Virus record (IMG/VR): IMGVR_UViG_3300042520_002218
Span: 1-31,354 of that record
Length of the DNA stretch: 31,354 nt
Source of the DNA: a virus
Direction: 5' to 3' (one strand)
Shown: positions 4,464 to 31,188 of the stretch, one piece after another
How positions within the stretch are numbered: position 1 is the first letter of the stretch
Layout: each line of letters starts with the position of its first letter
Notes under the pieces: model-generated
The model's input: the letters and a program-made list of their open reading frames with translations, nothing else
What the model was told of the DNA's origin: nothing
Databases searched by the model: none
Made by a program: the position numbers and the translations under genes

Positions 4464-6438
4464 CTCTAGCCTCCAAATCAACGTTTAATCTTCCACCACC
4501 ATCGTAAGTTTTCATCCTTGAAAGATCTCCATATTCCGAAGTAACCCAATCTATGCCCTTCTTTTTTATTTGCTCGCTTAGGAATAAGCACGCTGGAGTA
4601 TCTGGACTTATTGATGGTATTATTTTTGAATATGCACATAGACTTTTACACTTCCAATTAGTATTCTTATCACTAAGTAATCTTGGACGAGTATTCGACT
4701 TAATTGACTCAAATTCTTTTCTAAGCATATTCTCTGCTAATTTGAATTCGTCATCACCAAATGCAAAAGAAAAGATGCCGCCTTCAACAAGAACTTTGTC
4801 TATTGTATGATCGTTTATGTAATAAATTGATATGTAGAATCTCTTATCTGGATACTTACATCTTAAAGCATAATAATACAAAAGCAACTGCTTATCTTCT
4901 TTAAGACATTCGTAGGTTTTAACCTTTTCAGTTGCCCAATTATATCTACGTCCAGTATTGTGTGTAGGTATCATATTTTCTGTACACAAATATGTATGAT
5001 CATTACTATCCACACTTATACACTGAGTTTCCTTTATGCCAATCTTTTCTATATTTTTGATAGATCTTCTAAAAGAATTTCCATCACCCCAATTTACTTT
5101 ATCTCTTTTAATTGGTAGTAAGAACGGATTTATACCAACTGGCCTAAAAGATACTGGATACGCATTTACTTCTAGTCCAAAGCCTTTTGCTATAGTATTA
5201 GATAATAATGGTCTTTGCCCAAGAGTTAAAAGTAATGCCTTTACATCCTCTGACAAACGCTTATTACAATTCATAAAAACACATTGTTTTCGAGCGTTAT
5301 TAGCACTACCGTCGCTATCCATTAATCCTCTAAGCAAATCCAACCTTTGATTATAAGATGATCTTAAATAAACTTCTGGTATATGTTTATTATTTAATAG
5401 ATCAAGCTTTCTCAATATTGGTGTTGAATCAAAAATAGTTCTACTCTCACATTTCACTTCCCTTTTTTCTTGATTTTTACCTACCTTAAAACCTCGCCTC
5501 TCAATTTCCTCAAAAATGAATTTATCCCCAGATGTAATTTCGCAACTTCTATTTCTACCGTCTCCAAGCCATACACCAAGAACATATGGATCTATAGGTA
5601 ATTCTATATTACAGCAATCGATAGGGGAGGCTACTTTTATTTTATCTCCTATTTTAAGTTCAGTAATTTGTTTGACATTTCCATCGAGTAATTTCCAATA
5701 ATGTTCATCATCGCATTCTACTACCGAAGTGTCGTCAAATACTATACGGAAACATTCTCTCATCTTTTTAGATGATTTAGCTATAACTTTAGTTTGTTTC
5801 CCATATTGATCAAATACAAAATCTCCTACACATAAATCTCCCATTGTACTCCAACCATTTGGTGTTGGTATTTTAGTTTCTACTGGTAATCCTTTGTAAT
5901 CTAATACATGCAGATAATAATCGTCCTCTTTAAATATTAAGTCAACTGTTCCTTTAATGCCTAGTTGACCTTCTATTACTTCTCCACCGATCTCATATCT
6001 ATACTTGGCCCATTCGTGAGGTATCTCAATTTCAAAGAATTCCTCTATAGCGTGTATATCTTGCTTCCTTGGGTCTAAGTCGCCATCCATTTTAGTGATA
6101 GCTGCTTTTGTCCATTCTAGGGTAATCTGTTCAGCCTTTGGAGGCATGAGTCCGGGAGCATCATTCTCGTAATAATCATAACTCAGTTTATTGATTAGTT
6201 CTAACGAGAATTTCTTGAAGGTAATTTTCCCAAAATTGTCATCTACAAGATATTTCTTACCATTTTGTTCTGCTAATTTGTATTTTGCCAGAAGTTCAAG
6301 ATTCTTGTGTACAACATTACCCATGTAAGCTTTGGCGTTCTTTTTGTCTGGAACACCAAGCACATAGTTAATAAAGTACTTCTGCTGACACATGGCATAG
6401 GAGCCAATGCTTGAAGAACGCAGATAAGTAATTAGCAT
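4456..6438 (-). CDS. RecB/Cas4-like PD-(D/E)XK exonuclease interrupted by an intein
   Basis: The 660-residue precursor consists of a 348-residue nuclease split by a 312-residue intein. The extein starts RSSSIGSYAMCQQKYFINY, a typical RecB/Cas4 N-terminus with C17. Catalytic motifs are GTVDLIF (D166), D180-Y-K182 directly before the intein, and QLLLY (Q517, Y521) after it. C597, C601 and C617 near the C-terminus, with C17, fit an AddB/Cas4-type 4Fe-4S cluster. Removing the intein joins DYK to TGRR and restores the family motif DYKTG, so the nuclease should be active only after splicing. It overlaps the dNMP kinase by seven bases. It probably works with the recombinase and helicase on DNA ends. 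Confidence 0.9.
   Translation of the reverse strand: MLITYLRSSSIGSYAMCQQKYFINYVLGVPDKKNAKAYMGNVVHKNLELLAKYKLAEQNGKKYLVDDNFGKITFKKFSLELINKLSYDYYENDAPGLMPPKAEQITLEWTKAAITKMDGDLDPRKQDIHAIEEFFEIEIPHEWAKYRYEIGGEVIEGQLGIKGTVDLIFKEDDYYLHVLDYKGLPVETKIPTPNGWSTMGDLCVGDFVFDQYGKQTKVIAKSSKKMRECFRIVFDDTSVVECDDEHYWKLLDGNVKQITELKIGDKIKVASPIDCCNIELPIDPYVLGVWLGDGRNRSCEITSGDKFIFEEIERRGFKVGKNQEKREVKCESRTIFDSTPILRKLDLLNNKHIPEVYLRSSYNQRLDLLRGLMDSDGSANNARKQCVFMNCNKRLSEDVKALLLTLGQRPLLSNTIAKGFGLEVNAYPVSFRPVGINPFLLPIKRDKVNWGDGNSFRRSIKNIEKIGIKETQCISVDSNDHTYLCTENMIPTHNTGRRYNWATEKVKTYECLKEDKQLLLYYYALRCKYPDKRFYISIYYINDHTIDKVLVEGGIFSFAFGDDEFKLAENMLRKEFESIKSNTRPRLLSDKNTNWKCKSLCAYSKIIPSISPDTPACLFLSEQIKKKGIDWVTSEYGDLSRMKTYDGGGRLNVDLEARDD
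4957..5892 (-). other. Class 3 intein with LAGLIDADG homing endonuclease
   Basis: Codons 183-494 of the nuclease gene encode the intein. It starts with Gly instead of the usual Cys or Ser (GLPVETKIPTPNGW), so class 1 splicing cannot start normally. The class 3 Trp-Cys-Thr signature is present: block B is ECDDEHYWKLL with H246 and W248, block F is QCISVDSNDHTYL with C473, and block G is PTHN with T492, H493 and N494, followed by the +1 residue T495. Two LAGLIDADG motifs (VLGVWLGDG at about 287-294 and DLLRGLMDSDG at 367-377) show an apparently intact homing endonuclease. The boundaries follow from restoring DYK|TG in the host protein. Confidence 0.92.
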
Positions 6439-13787: not shown

Positions 13788-15425
13788 TTATCCTTCACAA
13801 GATTTGCATTCTAAAATGCTACGAGTTAGCTCTTGACTTGGGTTATAGCCGCGTTGATAATAAAAACCTTTAATACCATTCTCCCAACCATATATTAGTA
13901 GTTGACTAACATCTTTCGGTGGAGTTTTTGGAGAAATCATGAGATTCAGACTTTGACCCTGATCAATGTATTTTTGCCTTTGTATAGCTTGTATTACTAT
14001 CTCTTTCTGGGAAATTTCCCCAAAAGTCTTAAATACTTCTTTATCATGGTCAGATAAAAAGGAAAGATGCTGTACTGAGCCGCCATGTTCCAATATAGAG
14101 GCCCACGTTTGTGGGGTATCCTCATTCAGTTCTTTAAGTTTTATCTTTAGGTATGGATTTTTGTAGGTATGATTACCCTTTGATAATCTCTTAACGAAGT
14201 AATTACTATTCAGAGCCTCAATACCTTGGGAAATTTGTCCCAAAATAGCTGAGTTTGACGTAGTTGGAGCAACAGCCATTCTGGTTGCCATTCTCTGGCC
14301 TGTACCAACCATCAATTCTGGTTCACCAAATTTTTCGGCCAATTCAATACTTGCTAATAGAGTCTGCTCATTGATGTATTTAAATATTTCAGTATTCAGG
14401 AATTTGGCCTGCATACTTTCAAAAGCTATATTTTTAGACTGCAAATATGAATGCCACCCTAAAACTCCCAAACCTATTGCTCTTTGGCGTTTCGCAAAAT
14501 TATGGGCGGATTTTAAGAACTTAATCGATTCTGTTTTTTCTACATATTCAGTAGTAACAGTATCGAGAAAATATGTTAGTACTTTAATTAGATCTGTGTT
14601 TTTCCATTCATCATAATGTAGTAAGTTTGCAGAAGATAGTACGCATACGTAAGATTCGTCTTCTTCCAAAGACAGCATTATTTCATTGCAAAGATTACTA
14701 GAATAAATTTTCTTATTATGTTTCTTGTAAACTTCTGGTGCATTATTATTTGCATTATCAGTAAAAACAAGATAAGGATATCCAGACTCAAATCTCTTCT
14801 TTATGATCTGACTCCAAATTTTTAGCTTATCTTTGTCTTTATTTTTTAGATCATTCATCCATTTGTCTGATATGCAGACTCCTATAGATAAATCCTGTAT
14901 TGGATTCCCGATACTTTTGATTCTTAGAAATTCGAGAATGTCCGGATGATCAACAGGCAAATAAGCCGCCATAGACCCTCTACGAATCGATGACTGAGAT
15001 ATGACCGAGGTAATCTTGTCAAACAATTCCATGAAGTGTACGGGGCCACTAGACTCGCCACCAGTCGAAATTTTGGCCCCTCTAGGTCTCAACTCACCAA
15101 AATAAGCTGAAGTGCCAGCACCATATTTCGTCATTGACGCAATTTCTGCCATCTTAGACAAAATACTATCCATATTGTCTTTTATTAGGCTTGAATTACA
15201 AGACGCAGGAAGTCCCCTGTTTGTTCCATAATTTGCCCATACTGGACTAGATAAGCCTATCCATCCCTTAAGGATATAATCTTCTATTTTATCAGCATAT
15301 CCTTCTATACCCAAATGTTTTTCAGCAGTTTCAGCTATCTGCCTAATTCTTTCTTCTACTGTTTGTCCTTCTGCTAGATAACCTTTAGATAGGAAACTTC
15401 TGGATTTTTCATTTAGCCATGTCAT
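13788..15425 (-). CDS. nrdA: Ribonucleotide reductase, class I alpha subunit
   Basis: The 545-residue subunit reduces ribonucleotides to deoxyribonucleotides. Key residues are C76 (PASCNS) and C261 (YVCVLSSANL), the redox pair; N244, C246 and E248 in SNLCNEI, the catalytic site; and Y522/Y523 (GFYYQRG), the radical-transfer tyrosines. C540 and C543 near the end form the C-terminal shuttle pair. The N-terminus starts almost at the catalytic barrel, so the ATP-cone activity-control domain is missing, and dATP inhibition through it is not expected. The start overlaps the beta-subunit stop as ATGA. Confidence 0.94.
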   Translation of the reverse strand: MTWLNEKSRSFLSKGYLAEGQTVEERIRQIAETAEKHLGIEGYADKIEDYILKGWIGLSSPVWANYGTNRGLPASCNSSLIKDNMDSILSKMAEIASMTKYGAGTSAYFGELRPRGAKISTGGESSGPVHFMELFDKITSVISQSSIRRGSMAAYLPVDHPDILEFLRIKSIGNPIQDLSIGVCISDKWMNDLKNKDKDKLKIWSQIIKKRFESGYPYLVFTDNANNNAPEVYKKHNKKIYSSNLCNEIMLSLEEDESYVCVLSSANLLHYDEWKNTDLIKVLTYFLDTVTTEYVEKTESIKFLKSAHNFAKRQRAIGLGVLGWHSYLQSKNIAFESMQAKFLNTEIFKYINEQTLLASIELAEKFGEPELMVGTGQRMATRMAVAPTTSNSAILGQISQGIEALNSNYFVKRLSKGNHTYKNPYLKIKLKELNEDTPQTWASILEHGGSVQHLSFLSDHDKEVFKTFGEISQKEIVIQAIQRQKYIDQGQSLNLMISPKTPPKDVSQLLIYGWENGIKGFYYQRGYNPSQELTRSILECKSCEG

Positions 15426-16393
15426 ATTAAGTCATTCTCGTCTACGAATAAATTGCGTTGATAATCTGTTGGTCGTTGATGGAAAAAGTCTGTTGAATTA
15501 TTGGCCAATATTTCTTCATTCATCCATTCAAAGTCTCTTTCAACTTCTTCTTTTACTACGAATAATTGATTATAGCCAATATCACGAAGCGAATTGTTGA
15601 TTCTTGACTGAATAAAACCCTTGATAATATCAGAAGAAATCCTAGTACCCACATAACCGGAAAGCATCCAATCCACTATTTTACACTCAGCCTTATAAGC
15701 TTCTTGAGCTTCGTGTAAAATTTTATCTTCAAGGTCTTTGTCAAATAATTCTGGATATTCTTTCTTTATGGTATTAATTAATTTGATACCAACTTTACTA
15801 TGTAATAATTCTTCATTCTTTGTATATGTGATTTGTTGTGTTGTATCTTTTAATACGTTTTTATATCTACCAAACCACAACATAATGTAGAATTGGGAAA
15901 ATAATGATACGTTTTCAACAAAGAGAGTGAACAATATAAGTGCATAAATATACTGTTTCTTGCTGTCTTTGTAGAATTTATGATTGTATTTCTTTAGGTA
16001 GTTTACCCTGCCCTTGATACAATCAAGCTGCAAATTCTCAAGGAAGATATCTTCAATTCCGAGAACTTCTAATAATCGCAGATATGCGTTTGAGTGGATT
16101 ACTTCTGAGGCACCAAGCACAACACCCAAGTCAGATAGACTCGGGTGTGGTAGATTATCTCCAAGTTTCGTCCAGAAGGTTTTTACAGCTACTTCAATTT
16201 GAGCAATAGCAGACAATGTGCGTACTACTATCTCTCTTTCTTCTTCGTTCAGTACAACCTTAAAATCCTGAATATCACTACTAAAACTAAATTCTTCGTC
16301 AGTCCAGAATCCAGCATGCATCGCTCTAATAAAATCTTTTGCCCATGGGTAATTGTCTGGTTTTCTTGAAATCTGCTCGTCAAAAATACCCAT
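15422..16393 (-). CDS. nrdB: Ribonucleotide reductase, class I beta subunit
   Basis: The 323-residue subunit holds the metal centre that makes the radical for NrdA. Proposed ligands are E67 (AIAQIEVAV), E97 and H100 (GASEVIHSNAY), E160 (LFVENVSLF), and E195 and H198 (NEELLHSK). Y104 is four residues after H100, as is Y122 after H118 in E. coli, so a tyrosyl radical is possible. The first ligand position is Glu where E. coli has Asp84. AGGAAAAGTAT precedes the ATG. It is directly coupled to nrdA. Confidence 0.93.
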   Translation of the reverse strand: MGIFDEQISRKPDNYPWAKDFIRAMHAGFWTDEEFSFSSDIQDFKVVLNEEEREIVVRTLSAIAQIEVAVKTFWTKLGDNLPHPSLSDLGVVLGASEVIHSNAYLRLLEVLGIEDIFLENLQLDCIKGRVNYLKKYNHKFYKDSKKQYIYALILFTLFVENVSLFSQFYIMLWFGRYKNVLKDTTQQITYTKNEELLHSKVGIKLINTIKKEYPELFDKDLEDKILHEAQEAYKAECKIVDWMLSGYVGTRISSDIIKGFIQSRINNSLRDIGYNQLFVVKEEVERDFEWMNEEILANNSTDFFHQRPTDYQRNLFVDENDLI

Positions 16394-16426: not shown

Positions 16427-17167
16427 CTATACGCTGATAAGTGAGACTTGTCGTTTTAGTTCACTCACTATCTTTTGTCTATCGCAATCGTACCAACCAG
16501 CAGATAATAGACTATTTATTTCGACAACTTTCAGCGAGCCATTTTTAAGCCTACATATGTCTAAAGTCCACATTGGAGCAGGCTCTTGTAGGTCGGCGAG
16601 AACGGTTTCTGCGAATTTTTCGATTTCGGGTGTAACCTCTTCTATAGTAGGAGGATAGGGTGATCCCGTCAAGATTACCATGTCAGAAATGACAAATCGC
16701 CACTCGGCCACAATTTCCTTCAGAGGAGCCATTAATATAAGTTCTTCCGGGAAGAGAATCGGAAGATCGTATTTTATATCCTCATATTTGCCACCACTCA
16801 TTGATTTATATCCATTATTATCTTTAATGAATATATTATCATACTTTATGCTCTGAATTAAAAGATGGAAAGTTCCAGCTTCACAAAACATATGAGGGTT
16901 ATTGAGTGCATTTAGTCCAAGCTGAGGTAGATACTTATTGCAGTCATAGACCTTATCGTAGAGCCAAGTTATTGCTCTCGGCATCGTTTTAGTGATTCTT
17001 CTCCCAATAGGAATTGAACCACGAAATAAAAATGGACCGGATACTTCTTGTGAAAATATCGGCCCATCTATTGACGATTCGCATGTTATTATGTCAAATT
17101 CAGAATGTAGTACATCATAATCTTCAGGAAAAACTTCTGTCTGATATACTAGCTTATAATCTTTCAT
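16427..17167 (-). CDS. ATP-grasp protein (R2K/DUF4343-like)
   Basis: The product is 246 residues from ATG 17167. The frame is open further to 17299, but that extension lies over a separate zinc-ribbon gene in another frame, so the shorter start is chosen; GGGAAAGA lies upstream. The C-terminal half has EWRFVISD, MWTLDICRLKNGSLKVVEIN and SAGWYDCD, the pattern of ATP-grasp enzymes (metal-binding D and VEIN), closest in my reading to the R2K/DUF4343 group. These enzymes join a carboxylate to an amine or thiol using ATP. The substrate is unknown. It is next to nucleotide genes and a Cys-rich small protein. Confidence 0.72.
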   Translation of the reverse strand: MKDYKLVYQTEVFPEDYDVLHSEFDIITCESSIDGPIFSQEVSGPFLFRGSIPIGRRITKTMPRAITWLYDKVYDCNKYLPQLGLNALNNPHMFCEAGTFHLLIQSIKYDNIFIKDNNGYKSMSGGKYEDIKYDLPILFPEELILMAPLKEIVAEWRFVISDMVILTGSPYPPTIEEVTPEIEKFAETVLADLQEPAPMWTLDICRLKNGSLKVVEINSLLSAGWYDCDRQKIVSELKRQVSLISV

Positions 17168-17330
17168 TATATCTTTCCCAATAGACCCCAACCCAACATT
17201 CAGAATAATCAGGCAAACAATCTTCTTCAAAAGAAAATCTATTGAAGCAAACTGGACATTCGCCAGCTTCCCATTCTTCGTATTCAAATTCATGCCCACA
17301 TGATGGACAATCTAAGTCTGTTTTGCTCAT
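17154..17330 (-). CDS. Small zinc-ribbon protein (58 residues)
   Basis: This short frame starts at ATG 17330 with AGG seven bases upstream and ends inside the ATP-grasp start (14-base overlap). The product begins MSKTDLDCPSCGHEFEYEEW and continues GECPVCFNRFSFEEDC. Two CxxC knuckles (C8/C11 and C25/C28) make a treble-clef or zinc-ribbon fold likely. The C-terminus is acidic and aromatic (WVGVYWERYNERL). It is separated by two bases from the 95-residue gene upstream. It could be a partner or carrier for the ATP-grasp enzyme, which is inference from the coupling. Confidence 0.75.
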   Translation of the reverse strand: MSKTDLDCPSCGHEFEYEEWEAGECPVCFNRFSFEEDCLPDYSECWVGVYWERYNERL

Positions 17331-17631: not shown

Positions 17632-18387
17632 TTATTGTTTTGATCCTATCAATGTATAAATTTCTCTACTTGTTGGTATTGTATGCATACCACCCGGACC
17701 GAAATGAGGCTCGGCTTGCTCCCATATTCCTTTTTCTGGATATATCATCATTTGAGCCGCTAGTAAATCATGCATGGCTTTGTCATTAGATAAGTCATCA
17801 TAATATTTTTTTATAGCGACTGGAAAAGCATTTCTTATTTTTGGATCTACATTTGATTTTTTGTATCCATGACACACATTCTTACCTACGTAGTATCTCT
17901 TATTTATTTCTGCCTTATCTCTTAGTAGGATAAAGTCTCTTCTCGCCCCATTTGGATTAAACGAAGGCACCGATGTTTTACCAACAAATTTTTCTAATGG
18001 TCTTATGCTGTTCGCAGAATAGCCTCCTTGAAATACCATCTTGTTGCATTTTATCCAAAGTCCCTTTGGGGGTCCAATTACTAGTGCTGTAGAACATTCA
18101 ATAGCTTCATAAGGCGATAGTTCTATGGATGAATCCGAACCAAGAGACAAGATTTCATTTATGGCTTTGGAGCCCTGATATTGCTTTAGCGGCTTATGAG
18201 AAGCGTATATTGTTGGTCGATTTAATCCAAATTGTCTATAGATAGAATCTACTATTAGTGCCTGTTCGGAGAATCCGGGATTAATAAAAACAATAGATGG
18301 AACATAATCCCCTCTCGAAATCAAATATGACAGAGCGATTATATCATCAGGATCATGACCAATATCAGTGTGAAGTAGAAATGTCAT
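17632..18387 (-). CDS. Nucleoside-hydrolase-like protein
   Basis: The 251-residue product opens with FLLHTDIGHDPDDIIALSYL, a variant of the calcium-binding DxDxGxDDAxAL motif of inosine-uridine nucleoside hydrolases (D8, D12, D14, D15). The family splits nucleosides into base and ribose. The usual first Asp is His6 and there is a one-residue insertion (HDPDD), so substrate choice may differ. The C-terminal MHDLLAAQMMIYPE has the helix and aliphatic run seen before the active-site loop in the family. It overlaps dCMP deaminase by 23 bases, with AGGGAAATAG before the ATG. A salvage or NAD-related role is possible. Confidence 0.72.
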   Translation of the reverse strand: MTFLLHTDIGHDPDDIIALSYLISRGDYVPSIVFINPGFSEQALIVDSIYRQFGLNRPTIYASHKPLKQYQGSKAINEILSLGSDSSIELSPYEAIECSTALVIGPPKGLWIKCNKMVFQGGYSANSIRPLEKFVGKTSVPSFNPNGARRDFILLRDKAEINKRYYVGKNVCHGYKKSNVDPKIRNAFPVAIKKYYDDLSNDKAMHDLLAAQMMIYPEKGIWEQAEPHFGPGGMHTIPTSREIYTLIGSKQ

Positions 18388-18844
18388 AATCTATTTCCCT
18401 ATATCCAAGTCCAACTTCTTCAATTATCGATCTTGAGAATTCAATATCATCTTTCCATCTGTCTGGAATACAAGTATTTTTTATACTAACTATTTCTGAT
18501 ATACCAGCCTGTATCAAAGATACAAGGCATCTAGAGCACGGTGGTCCCGACCATAGTACCCCATTTGATTCAGCCGCTAAGTACATAGTACATCCTTGTA
18601 CACGTATTCCCAGATTGGCTGCAGCCAATATGGCGTTCATTTCAGCATGTACAACCAACTTAAGCTTGACTTCTCGATCAAGCAATCGCTCGTCGTCTTT
18701 AACGCCTCTAGGGAATCCATTGAATCCAGCAGACACTACCTGTCTATCAGGTGTAACAATAACCGCCCCAACTTTTGTGGAGGGGTCCTTGCTTAGTTTG
18801 GCGTGAAGCCGACACATATCGATAAAGTGCTTATCCCACTTCAT
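18365..18844 (-). CDS. Deoxycytidylate (dCMP) deaminase
   Basis: The 159-residue enzyme converts dCMP to dUMP, the substrate of the nearby thymidylate synthase. The zinc site is HAE in VVHAEMNAI (H66, E68) with PCSRC (C103, C106). The start KWDKHFIDMCRLHAKLSKDP and STKVGAVIV match the family closely. The extra allosteric zinc site of T4-type deaminases is not seen. The ATG overlaps the stop of a 27-codon frame as ATGA. Confidence 0.92.
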   Translation of the reverse strand: MKWDKHFIDMCRLHAKLSKDPSTKVGAVIVTPDRQVVSAGFNGFPRGVKDDERLLDREVKLKLVVHAEMNAILAAANLGIRVQGCTMYLAAESNGVLWSGPPCSRCLVSLIQAGISEIVSIKNTCIPDRWKDDIEFSRSIIEEVGLGYREIDYDISTSH

Positions 18845-29803: not shown

Positions 29804-30803
29804 TACTATTCTCCCATGTAAATTCTTTAGAATCTTTTACACCATTTGAGTTTATGATATAACTTCTATTCTTATGAAATTCTCTCATGTAATTTACTAG
29901 TTGATCGAATTGATCCTTACCAAGAGATCTCCACTTAGATGCTCCATTAAAGAATACGCCATCATAGGCCGATTCAAATTTATCGGGCATGTCTATCATC
30001 ATTGAGTTATTGGAGTTAGCATATTCCTTATGTCCAGTACAATCACTTATGATTAGGTGTTTTCCACATGCTAACAGTTCTAGAGGTTCTAAATTCCAAC
30101 CTTCTGCTCTAGCTGGGAATACGCCACAATGAATTTGGTTCATAACATGGGCTACATCTTTATGATTAGGTAATCTAGGAACTATTTGAACTTTAGATCC
30201 TAACTTAGAATTAAGATACATCTTTTCCCAAGCCGATCTTTGTGTTTCAGATAAGAATGGGTTAGAAGGCATCATAACTAATGTGACATTATCATCCTTC
30301 TCAAAAGCTGCGTTAAATGCTCTGATAAGAACATCGTGACCCTTGCGAATTTCCCACTTACCAAAATTCCCAAAGATTGTGTGGTCTTTTTCTTCCTGCG
30401 GAGTAGGATAAAAGATTTCATGATCATAACCTAATGGAACAACTGATGCGTTAATCCCATGATTTTCACACACCTTTTGAGCCCATTTAGATGCAACTAT
30501 CAATTTGTCTGGATATTTCATATTCCAAACTTCATTCTCATTAAGATCTTCAAGCTCAAATACTGTAAAACCTATTTTGGGGCTTCCAGTGAAACCAGAT
30601 AAATCGAATTGATGCCAAATTTTTAAGCATGGTGCATCATAATGAAATTTTTCTTTACCGAACGAAAACTTTTCGTCTGGATTATTTTGTCCAATTGGTA
30701 AATGTCTTACATCCCACCCCATCTTTGATAGGTAGTGATATGTATAACTTGAATGATAACCATAACTAGTAGTGTTCAATGGTGCAAATAAATTAAGCTT
30801 CAT
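29775..30803 (-). CDS. GT-B (GT4-like) glycosyltransferase
   Basis: The 342-residue product starts at ATG 30803, with GGAGAG eight bases upstream; an in-frame start at 30821 is less likely. The C-terminal donor domain has the GT4 EX7E signature in RAEGWNLEPLELLACGK (E234 and E242) and the acceptor-linked elements KWEIRKGHDVLIRAF and VPLGYDHEIF. The N-terminus is MKLNLFAPLNTTSYGYHSS, a glycine-poor start that differs from the 542-residue enzyme at 1935-3563. Target is unknown: virion, DNA or host glycan. Confidence 0.88.
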   Translation of the reverse strand: MKLNLFAPLNTTSYGYHSSYTYHYLSKMGWDVRHLPIGQNNPDEKFSFGKEKFHYDAPCLKIWHQFDLSGFTGSPKIGFTVFELEDLNENEVWNMKYPDKLIVASKWAQKVCENHGINASVVPLGYDHEIFYPTPQEEKDHTIFGNFGKWEIRKGHDVLIRAFNAAFEKDDNVTLVMMPSNPFLSETQRSAWEKMYLNSKLGSKVQIVPRLPNHKDVAHVMNQIHCGVFPARAEGWNLEPLELLACGKHLIISDCTGHKEYANSNNSMMIDMPDKFESAYDGVFFNGASKWRSLGKDQFDQLVNYMREFHKNRSYIINSNGVKDSKEFTWENSIDKLSKKIV

Positions 30804-31188
30804 TAATATTCTCTCCGTCAAAATAAAATACTCTAATACCCAAAGGTTCTAATATGTTAGTGCAGGATTTACATGGTTTACTTATCATCAACTCATTTTT
30901 CTTATTTAGCCTTAGACTGACTAGAGACATTTTAGGCCCAATATGAGTGTTTCCCCATAATTTGGCAATCGCATCAATCTCGGCATGTAAAAAAGGAAAT
31001 GTGATGGTTTTTTCTGCACCGAATCTCCGGCCAAATCTGTAAGCTTTAGCTGACGTAGTCTCCATATCGTTCTGGCCAATACTCAACAGCTTATTACGGA
31101 CGTATATAAACGCAAAATGCCTATGGGTTTTATCCGCATAGACATTTAGTTTCGTTGCTATTCTTATGGAAGAATCAAATATCTTCAT
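30793..31188 (-). CDS. Zinc-dependent cytidine deaminase-fold protein
   Basis: The 131-residue product carries the deaminase zinc site HAE in FLHAEIDAI (H68, E70) and KPCKSC (C106, C109). It lacks the PSTKVGA block of dCMP deaminases and differs from the enzyme at 18365-18844, so it likely acts on another substrate, such as a cytosine nucleoside, a modified base or nucleic acid. It overlaps the glycosyltransferase start by 11 bases. Confidence 0.82.
   Translation of the reverse strand: MKIFDSSIRIATKLNVYADKTHRHFAFIYVRNKLLSIGQNDMETTSAKAYRFGRRFGAEKTITFPFLHAEIDAIAKLWGNTHIGPKMSLVSLRLNKKNELMISKPCKSCTNILEPLGIRVFYFDGENINEA

Follow-up and report, generated by a model that had tools for sequence, protein, structure and literature searches.

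On the minus strand of the window, by which we mean the whole 31,354-nucleotide stretch of viral DNA analysed here (IMG/VR record IMGVR_UViG_3300042520_002218), one open reading frame encodes a precursor in which a RecB/Cas4-like PD-(D/E)XK nuclease is interrupted by a class 3 intein (Table 1). The precursor matches the Pfam family PF12705 (PDDEXK_1, E = 2.3e-12), and the spliced nuclease is predicted at 348 residues. Between its two splicing regions the insert carries a LAGLIDADG homing-endonuclease region, which matches LAGLIDADG_3 (PF14528) over residues 365-407 above the curated cut-off (E = 5.2e-05). A structure prediction for the whole precursor was poor (pLDDT 60.4) and was set aside as uninformative. 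Elsewhere in the window lie a gene for an R2K ATP-grasp domain protein (16430-17299, E = 5.4e-14) that adjoins ribonucleotide reductase genes (13791-16393), and two cytidine/deoxycytidylate deaminase-like genes (18368-18844 and 30796-31188); the phage also encodes thymidylate synthase, DHFR and a deoxynucleotide monophosphate kinase.

Table 1 Parts of the intein-containing nuclease gene in the window, with the loci that share a different intein end (a slash marks an intein-extein junction here and throughout)
Feature	Position	Strand	Basis
Precursor gene, RecB/Cas4-like PD-(D/E)XK nuclease with intein, 660 aa	4456..6438	-	Open reading frame; Pfam matches
N-extein, aa 1-182, last residues DYK; C17, H44, D166, D180, K182	5893..6438	-	Alignment
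Class 3 intein, aa 183-494, 312 aa	4957..5892	-	Alignments to relatives and to solved inteins
N-terminal splicing region, about aa 183-272 (we chose aa 272 as a rough boundary)	5623..5892	-	Gly183, C229, block B DDEHYW; aligned to 6bs8, 6rix and 6riy
LAGLIDADG homing-endonuclease region, about aa 273-444 (limits approximate)	5107..5622	-	VLGVWLGDG and LLRGLMDSDG; PF14528
C-terminal splicing region, about aa 445-494	4957..5106	-	Block F TQCISVD with C473; block G PTHN
C-extein, aa 495-660, first residues T495-G496; Q517/Y521, C597, C601, C617	4459..4956	-	Alignment
Loci with the intein end THN/SSLGRLG: L165, L166, L168, L169, L171, L181-L185, L205, L231			

The insert carries the signature of a class 3 intein. 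Its first residue is Gly183, with no Cys, Ser or Thr at that position, as is characteristic of the class; block B (CDDEHYW) supplies D243, H246 and W248, block F (TQCISVD) supplies C473, and the terminal PTHN supplies T492, H493 and N494. The C-terminal H493-N494 pair is followed by Thr495 as the +1 nucleophile, again as in class 3, and both LAGLIDADG motifs, VLGVWLGDG and LLRGLMDSDG, have their acidic residues. These details agree exactly with the initial annotation, which had listed the Gly start, HYW, QCISVD, PTHN, two LAGLIDADG motifs and the same limits for the insert. Kelley et al. 2016 place the class 3 triplet at W in B:12, C in F:4 and T in G:5 (PMC5050341). The best solved-structure matches to the insert were mycobacterial DnaB inteins (phmmer; 6rix, E = 1.1e-17, and 6bs8, E = 3.4e-16), and W67, C118 and T137 of 6bs8, numbered by counting along the printed alignment, align on W248, C473 and T492 of the window. 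The earlier assignment to class 3 is upheld by this register of the W/C/T triplet with solved class 3 inteins and by the leading Gly. Taken alone, the C-terminal stretch of the intein matched solved inteins weakly (i-Evalue about 0.5), and the window protein scored 14.8 bits with the NCBIfam C-terminal intein model TIGR01443, slightly under its cut-off of 15.6. Because tblastn matched the insert to a phage exonuclease at E = 2e-77, its resemblance to phage inteins, as judged from sequence, is far above chance.

The conserved residues of RecB-like PD-(D/E)XK nucleases are H, D, (D/E)xK and QxxxY, and the Fe-S nucleases Cas4, AddB and Dna2 have four Cys, of which one lies towards the N-terminus and three towards the C-terminus. 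In the window protein H44, D166, D180, K182, Q517 and Y521 are invariant across 7/7 aligned intein-bearing relatives, and the corresponding residues, renumbered, across 23/23 intein-free relatives in a set that we chose; C17, C597, C601 and C617 are invariant in the same two sets. Together with the PF12705 match, the nuclease residues bear out the RecB/Cas4-like host proposed at the outset, and from its sequence the window nuclease has the four-Cys layout of the Fe-S type, with a putative cluster. When three distant named phages were included, H44, D166, D180, K182 and Q517 were invariant in 10/10 proteins and Y521 nearly so, while C17 and C601 were invariant in 10/10, C597 nearly so, and C617 was absent from the conserved columns. 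The H44 column was not aligned throughout the set formed by the window and the phages Traft412, Frankenweenie, Rollin and ET08. A structural model of the intein-free relative L020 (pLDDT 88.8) contains a strand that stops at residue 182, the insertion point. This model had 15 PDB matches at E of 0.001 or better, with low query TM-scores (0.25-0.46), and the matches include the Argonaute-associated Cas4-family protein ACE1 (E = 9.4e-08), AdnA, RecB, RecE, SSO0001 (a Cas4), AddAB and Dna2. CRISPR Cas4 proper was rejected as an identity: the window protein scored 15.3 bits with TIGR00372, and since this lies far under the cut-off of 65, the host protein is Cas4-like and not Cas4 itself.

The initial annotation had placed the insertion at DYK/TG. 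Alignment puts the insert right after the Lys, and intein-free relatives read DYK/TG at this place. The nearest intein-free proteins, which read DYK/TG or DYK/SG, are 347 residues long as compared with the 348 predicted after splicing, and their Q205, Y209, C285, C289 and C305 correspond to Q517, Y521, C597, C601 and C617 of the window with an offset of exactly 312. A scan with aligned N-exteins returned at least 80 loci. Among the 80 matches listed, 75 run on from the D-x-K junction with TG or SG (the junctions of L038 and L044 were read by eye), three continue with an intein and two are broken off at a contig end; these counts are not a frequency, because the 80 matches listed omit occupied loci known from another scan, such as L008, L010 and L011.

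One occupied relative, L009, could be compared with intein-free counterparts at the level of DNA. This locus, a 7.9-kb metagenome contig that may be a chimeric assembly, encodes a protein 66% identical to that of the window, and upstream of the insertion point it is identical to the intein-free L025 and L026 at 3546/3546 bp; downstream, over 1277 bp, it agrees with L025 at 99.77% and with L026 at 99.69%. Relative to L025 and L026, L009 gains exactly 939 bp, the intein, between TATAAA and ACTGG, which carry the codons of DYK and TG. Among the relatives of the window gene, alleles with and without the intein therefore exist for precisely the same site, as expected of a homing intein, and the presence of nearly identical DNA that lacks the intein suggests that the intein is an optional mobile passenger. 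For the window gene itself we found no intein-free copy with near-identical flanks; L008 and L010 encode a protein 100% identical to that of the window, intein included, and both are occupied. In an extein tree with 93 rows, of which 23 carry an intein (loci of the precursor scan plus the window) and 70 do not (from the N-extein scan), the intein must have been gained or lost at least 8 times, with 6 of these events forced by starred branches, although this was a quick tree with several long branches. Such a scattered distribution of occupied and empty sites is typical of mobile inteins.

We searched 50,697 phage records with tblastn and found 753 similar to the window protein and 757 similar to the intein alone. 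As neither extein alone matches any of these records at E 0.01, it is the intein that drives the matches. The RecA-like protein of the window phage resembles phage records no more than distantly, with 27-31% identity among the best 10 of 365. Five phage records carry an intein after D/E-x-K in a RecB-like protein, namely those of Traft412, Frankenweenie, Rollin, ET08 and an unannotated faecal phage, and the four named phages, aligned together with the window, have their intein at the corresponding place. The search for same-site inteins among RecB/Cas4 phage homologues that had been proposed as a check thus found them not only in these five records but in dozens of environmental contigs.

A scan with a precursor alignment returned 52 loci. 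From these we assembled 56 proteins, comprising the window, 50 loci (two copies of the window protein were removed) and the five phage records, and 47 of the 56 could be split at both junctions, giving 35 distinct proteins. The nine that were not split are the truncated L133, L139 and L144, the other or unidentified host proteins L146-L149 and L151, and L138, which was missed by the pattern and which by eye has the same site. Removal of eight near-duplicate or truncated copies from the 35 left 27 same-site inteins. W, C, T, H and N are present in 27/27; the conservation of W, THN and the following Thr or Ser arises partly by construction, since the scan patterns include the block B Trp and the splitting rule required THN and then Thr or Ser. 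The +1 residue is Thr in 26 and Ser in one, and the first residue is Gly in 26 and Ser in one (ET08). In an intein tree 26 of the 27 cluster, and the ET08 intein sits with those of other host proteins, for the most part terminases; a single clade for all 27 was not rejected (AU p = 0.127, on a quick tree with long branches). Three bacterial genome contigs (L161, L162 and L167, among the 80 matches listed) also fit the same-site RecB-like pattern, and L163, which is spread over two frames, may be a fourth bacterial case. As a separate observation, the intein end THN/SSLGRLG occurs in 12 mostly actinobacterial genome loci among the matches listed (Table 1). L165, the one such locus that was scanned, matches dCTP deaminase (TIGR02274, E = 5.9e-55), and from L165 and L169, the two that were read, the group appears to represent a class 3 intein with LAGLIDADG motifs, hosted by a cellular dCTP deaminase.

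Substitution rates were computed for five pairs. Between the window and L101, pN was 0.239 in the exteins, 0.261 in the splicing regions and 0.187 in the endonuclease, with pS at 0.84-0.87 (0.866 in the endonuclease), which is saturated and yields no ratio. The dN/dS values for L106 and L107 were 0.158 (exteins), 0.116 (splicing regions) and 0.076 (endonuclease), and those for L103 and L104 were 0.143 (splicing regions) and 0.145 (endonuclease). For L107 and L112 the exteins gave 0.06, the endonuclease value of 0.271 being nominal and drawn from too few intein differences, and the pair L105 and L150 was saturated. The intein, including its endonuclease, changes mostly at synonymous sites. L107 and L112 are identical at 556/558 positions of the N-extein, 942/945 of the intein and 416/489 of the C-extein; the breakpoint near the 3' end of the intein could reflect homing repair or ordinary phage recombination. 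Ten of the 11 loci compared with L107 (L112-L114, L116, L118, L119, L121, L122, L127 and L134) are sharp mosaics of this kind, with a breakpoint near the intein 3' junction and with 95-100% identity in the N-extein, about 99-100% in the intein and 85-87% in the C-extein; the eleventh, L117, is L107-like throughout.

We consider it very likely, on these alignments, that the window insert is a mobile intein of class 3, equipped with a LAGLIDADG homing endonuclease, lodged at a recurrent site in a phage RecB/Cas4-like exonuclease and predicted to splice itself out and restore the nuclease. By analogy with the class, C473 would attack the K182-G183 bond, T495 would receive the N-extein from C473, and cyclisation of N494 would release the intein and rejoin DYK/TG in a 348-residue nuclease. 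Spread would proceed through cleavage of intein-free DYKTG alleles by the endonuclease, repair of which would copy the intein in. Since D180 and K182 are parted from Q517 and Y521 by 312 residues, the unspliced precursor is probably inactive. The initial annotation went further and proposed that splicing may gate the enzyme, a step that is not supported, because in a relative the intein is missing from DNA that is otherwise nearly identical across the 4.8 kb examined. Given how closely L009 matches L025 and L026 over that length, the intein seems to be dispensable, and a regulatory role on which the phage depends is unlikely.

A stronger version of the gating proposal would make the intein a domesticated post-translational switch, in which conditional splicing, for example in response to redox state, times the activity of an Fe-S type nuclease; we regard this as improbable. 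The insert does separate D180 and K182 from Q517 and Y521, and C17 from C597, C601 and C617, and C229 and C473 of the window align with Cys48 and Cys118 of DnaBi1, the M. smegmatis intein whose structure is 6bs8, an identity that follows from the agreement of its residue numbers with the Cys48, Trp67, Cys118 and Thr137 named in PMC6195587. As described there, oxidant brings about an intramolecular Cys48-Cys118 disulfide in DnaBi1 and H2O2 inhibits its splicing (PMC6195587). A C229-C473 disulfide could by analogy hold the window nuclease, as an Fe-S type enzyme, split until reducing conditions return, a proposal that we find no easier to credit, even though the C229 column is Cys in 26/27 same-site inteins. 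That column is, however, also Cys in 9/14 class 3 inteins of other hosts and so is not special to the nuclease; moreover, every Cys48 mutation tried in that study abolished DnaBi1 splicing (PMC6195587), so the conservation of C229 may simply reflect a need in splicing. The absence of the intein from 75 among the 80 extein relatives listed, and the fact that L009 differs by little else from L025 and L026 over the 4.8 kb, likewise argue against a switch.

Still less probable is a decaying or splicing-dead intein with loss of the nuclease in the window phage. Erosion does occur at the same site, where L130 (264 aa) has an altered second motif and neither LAGLIDADG motif was found in L135 (239 aa), though the splicing triplet is intact in both; the window gene retains an unbroken reading frame, a complete splicing triplet, the Asp of each LAGLIDADG motif and the nuclease residues in its two exteins, and amino-acid change is low relative to synonymous change. 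A class 1 or 2 intein, or some other insertion mistaken for class 3, finds no support in the data, has next to no chance of being correct and is already refuted at the sequence level by a first residue other than Cys, Ser or Thr and by a W/C/T triplet in register with solved class 3 inteins. L009 set against L025 and L026 offers natural pairs with and without the intein for probing claims about the fitness or regulatory effects of inteins.

Among known systems, the class 3 mini-inteins of DnaB (6bs8, and 6rix and 6riy, which we take to be M. chimaera DnaB inteins) share with the window the splicing region, the W/C/T triplet and an equivalent of Cys48, but differ in their DnaB host and in length, since chains of 139-146 residues leave no room for an endonuclease domain. 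Closer in kind are Mycobacterium phage Traft412, Streptomyces phage Frankenweenie and Pseudomonas phage Rollin, which like the window read D-x-K/G at the start of the intein and THN/T at its end and carry the class 3 triplet and LAGLIDADG; their whole proteins are 33-35% identical to that of the window and are annotated as a Cas4 family exonuclease (Traft412), an exonuclease with the remark 'Cas4 exonuclease and intron' (Frankenweenie) and a hypothetical protein (Rollin). The environmental contigs L009, L011-L013, L015, L016, L103-L107, L123, L128, L135 and L150 have the nuclease family and site of the window, and such same-site environmental relatives, all metagenomic contigs, are 35-66% identical to the window in their best segment. 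In ET08, which we take to be a cluster C1 mycobacteriophage, gp202 has a RecB-like host as in the window and reads ELK/S and THN/T at junctions in the same alignment columns, but its whole protein is 26% identical to that of the window and its intein stands apart from the other 26 same-site inteins.

Kelley et al. 2016 report 40 intein-containing Cas4/RecB-like exonucleases in cluster C1 mycobacteriophages, with the inteins inserted in the PD-(D/E)XK motif and handled as class 3 (PMC5050341); as in the window, these are class 3 inteins at a single PD-(D/E)XK site of a Cas4/RecB-like exonuclease. The suggestion that host protein and site might be new for the class accordingly fails, since host family, class and motif are already in print in the 2016 report (PMC5050341), and same-site copies also lie in Traft412, Frankenweenie, Rollin and ET08. 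No other account of the site was recognised in a literature search on inteins with Cas4 or RecB and phage, which left most subscription papers outside its reach, and the accessible parts of PMC7412058 and PMC12403621 contain no description of it. The window intein is thus an instance of a known system type and not a new kind, and together with its relatives it shows that an intein site known in cultured phages, most of them mycobacterial, is also occupied in many uncultured ones.
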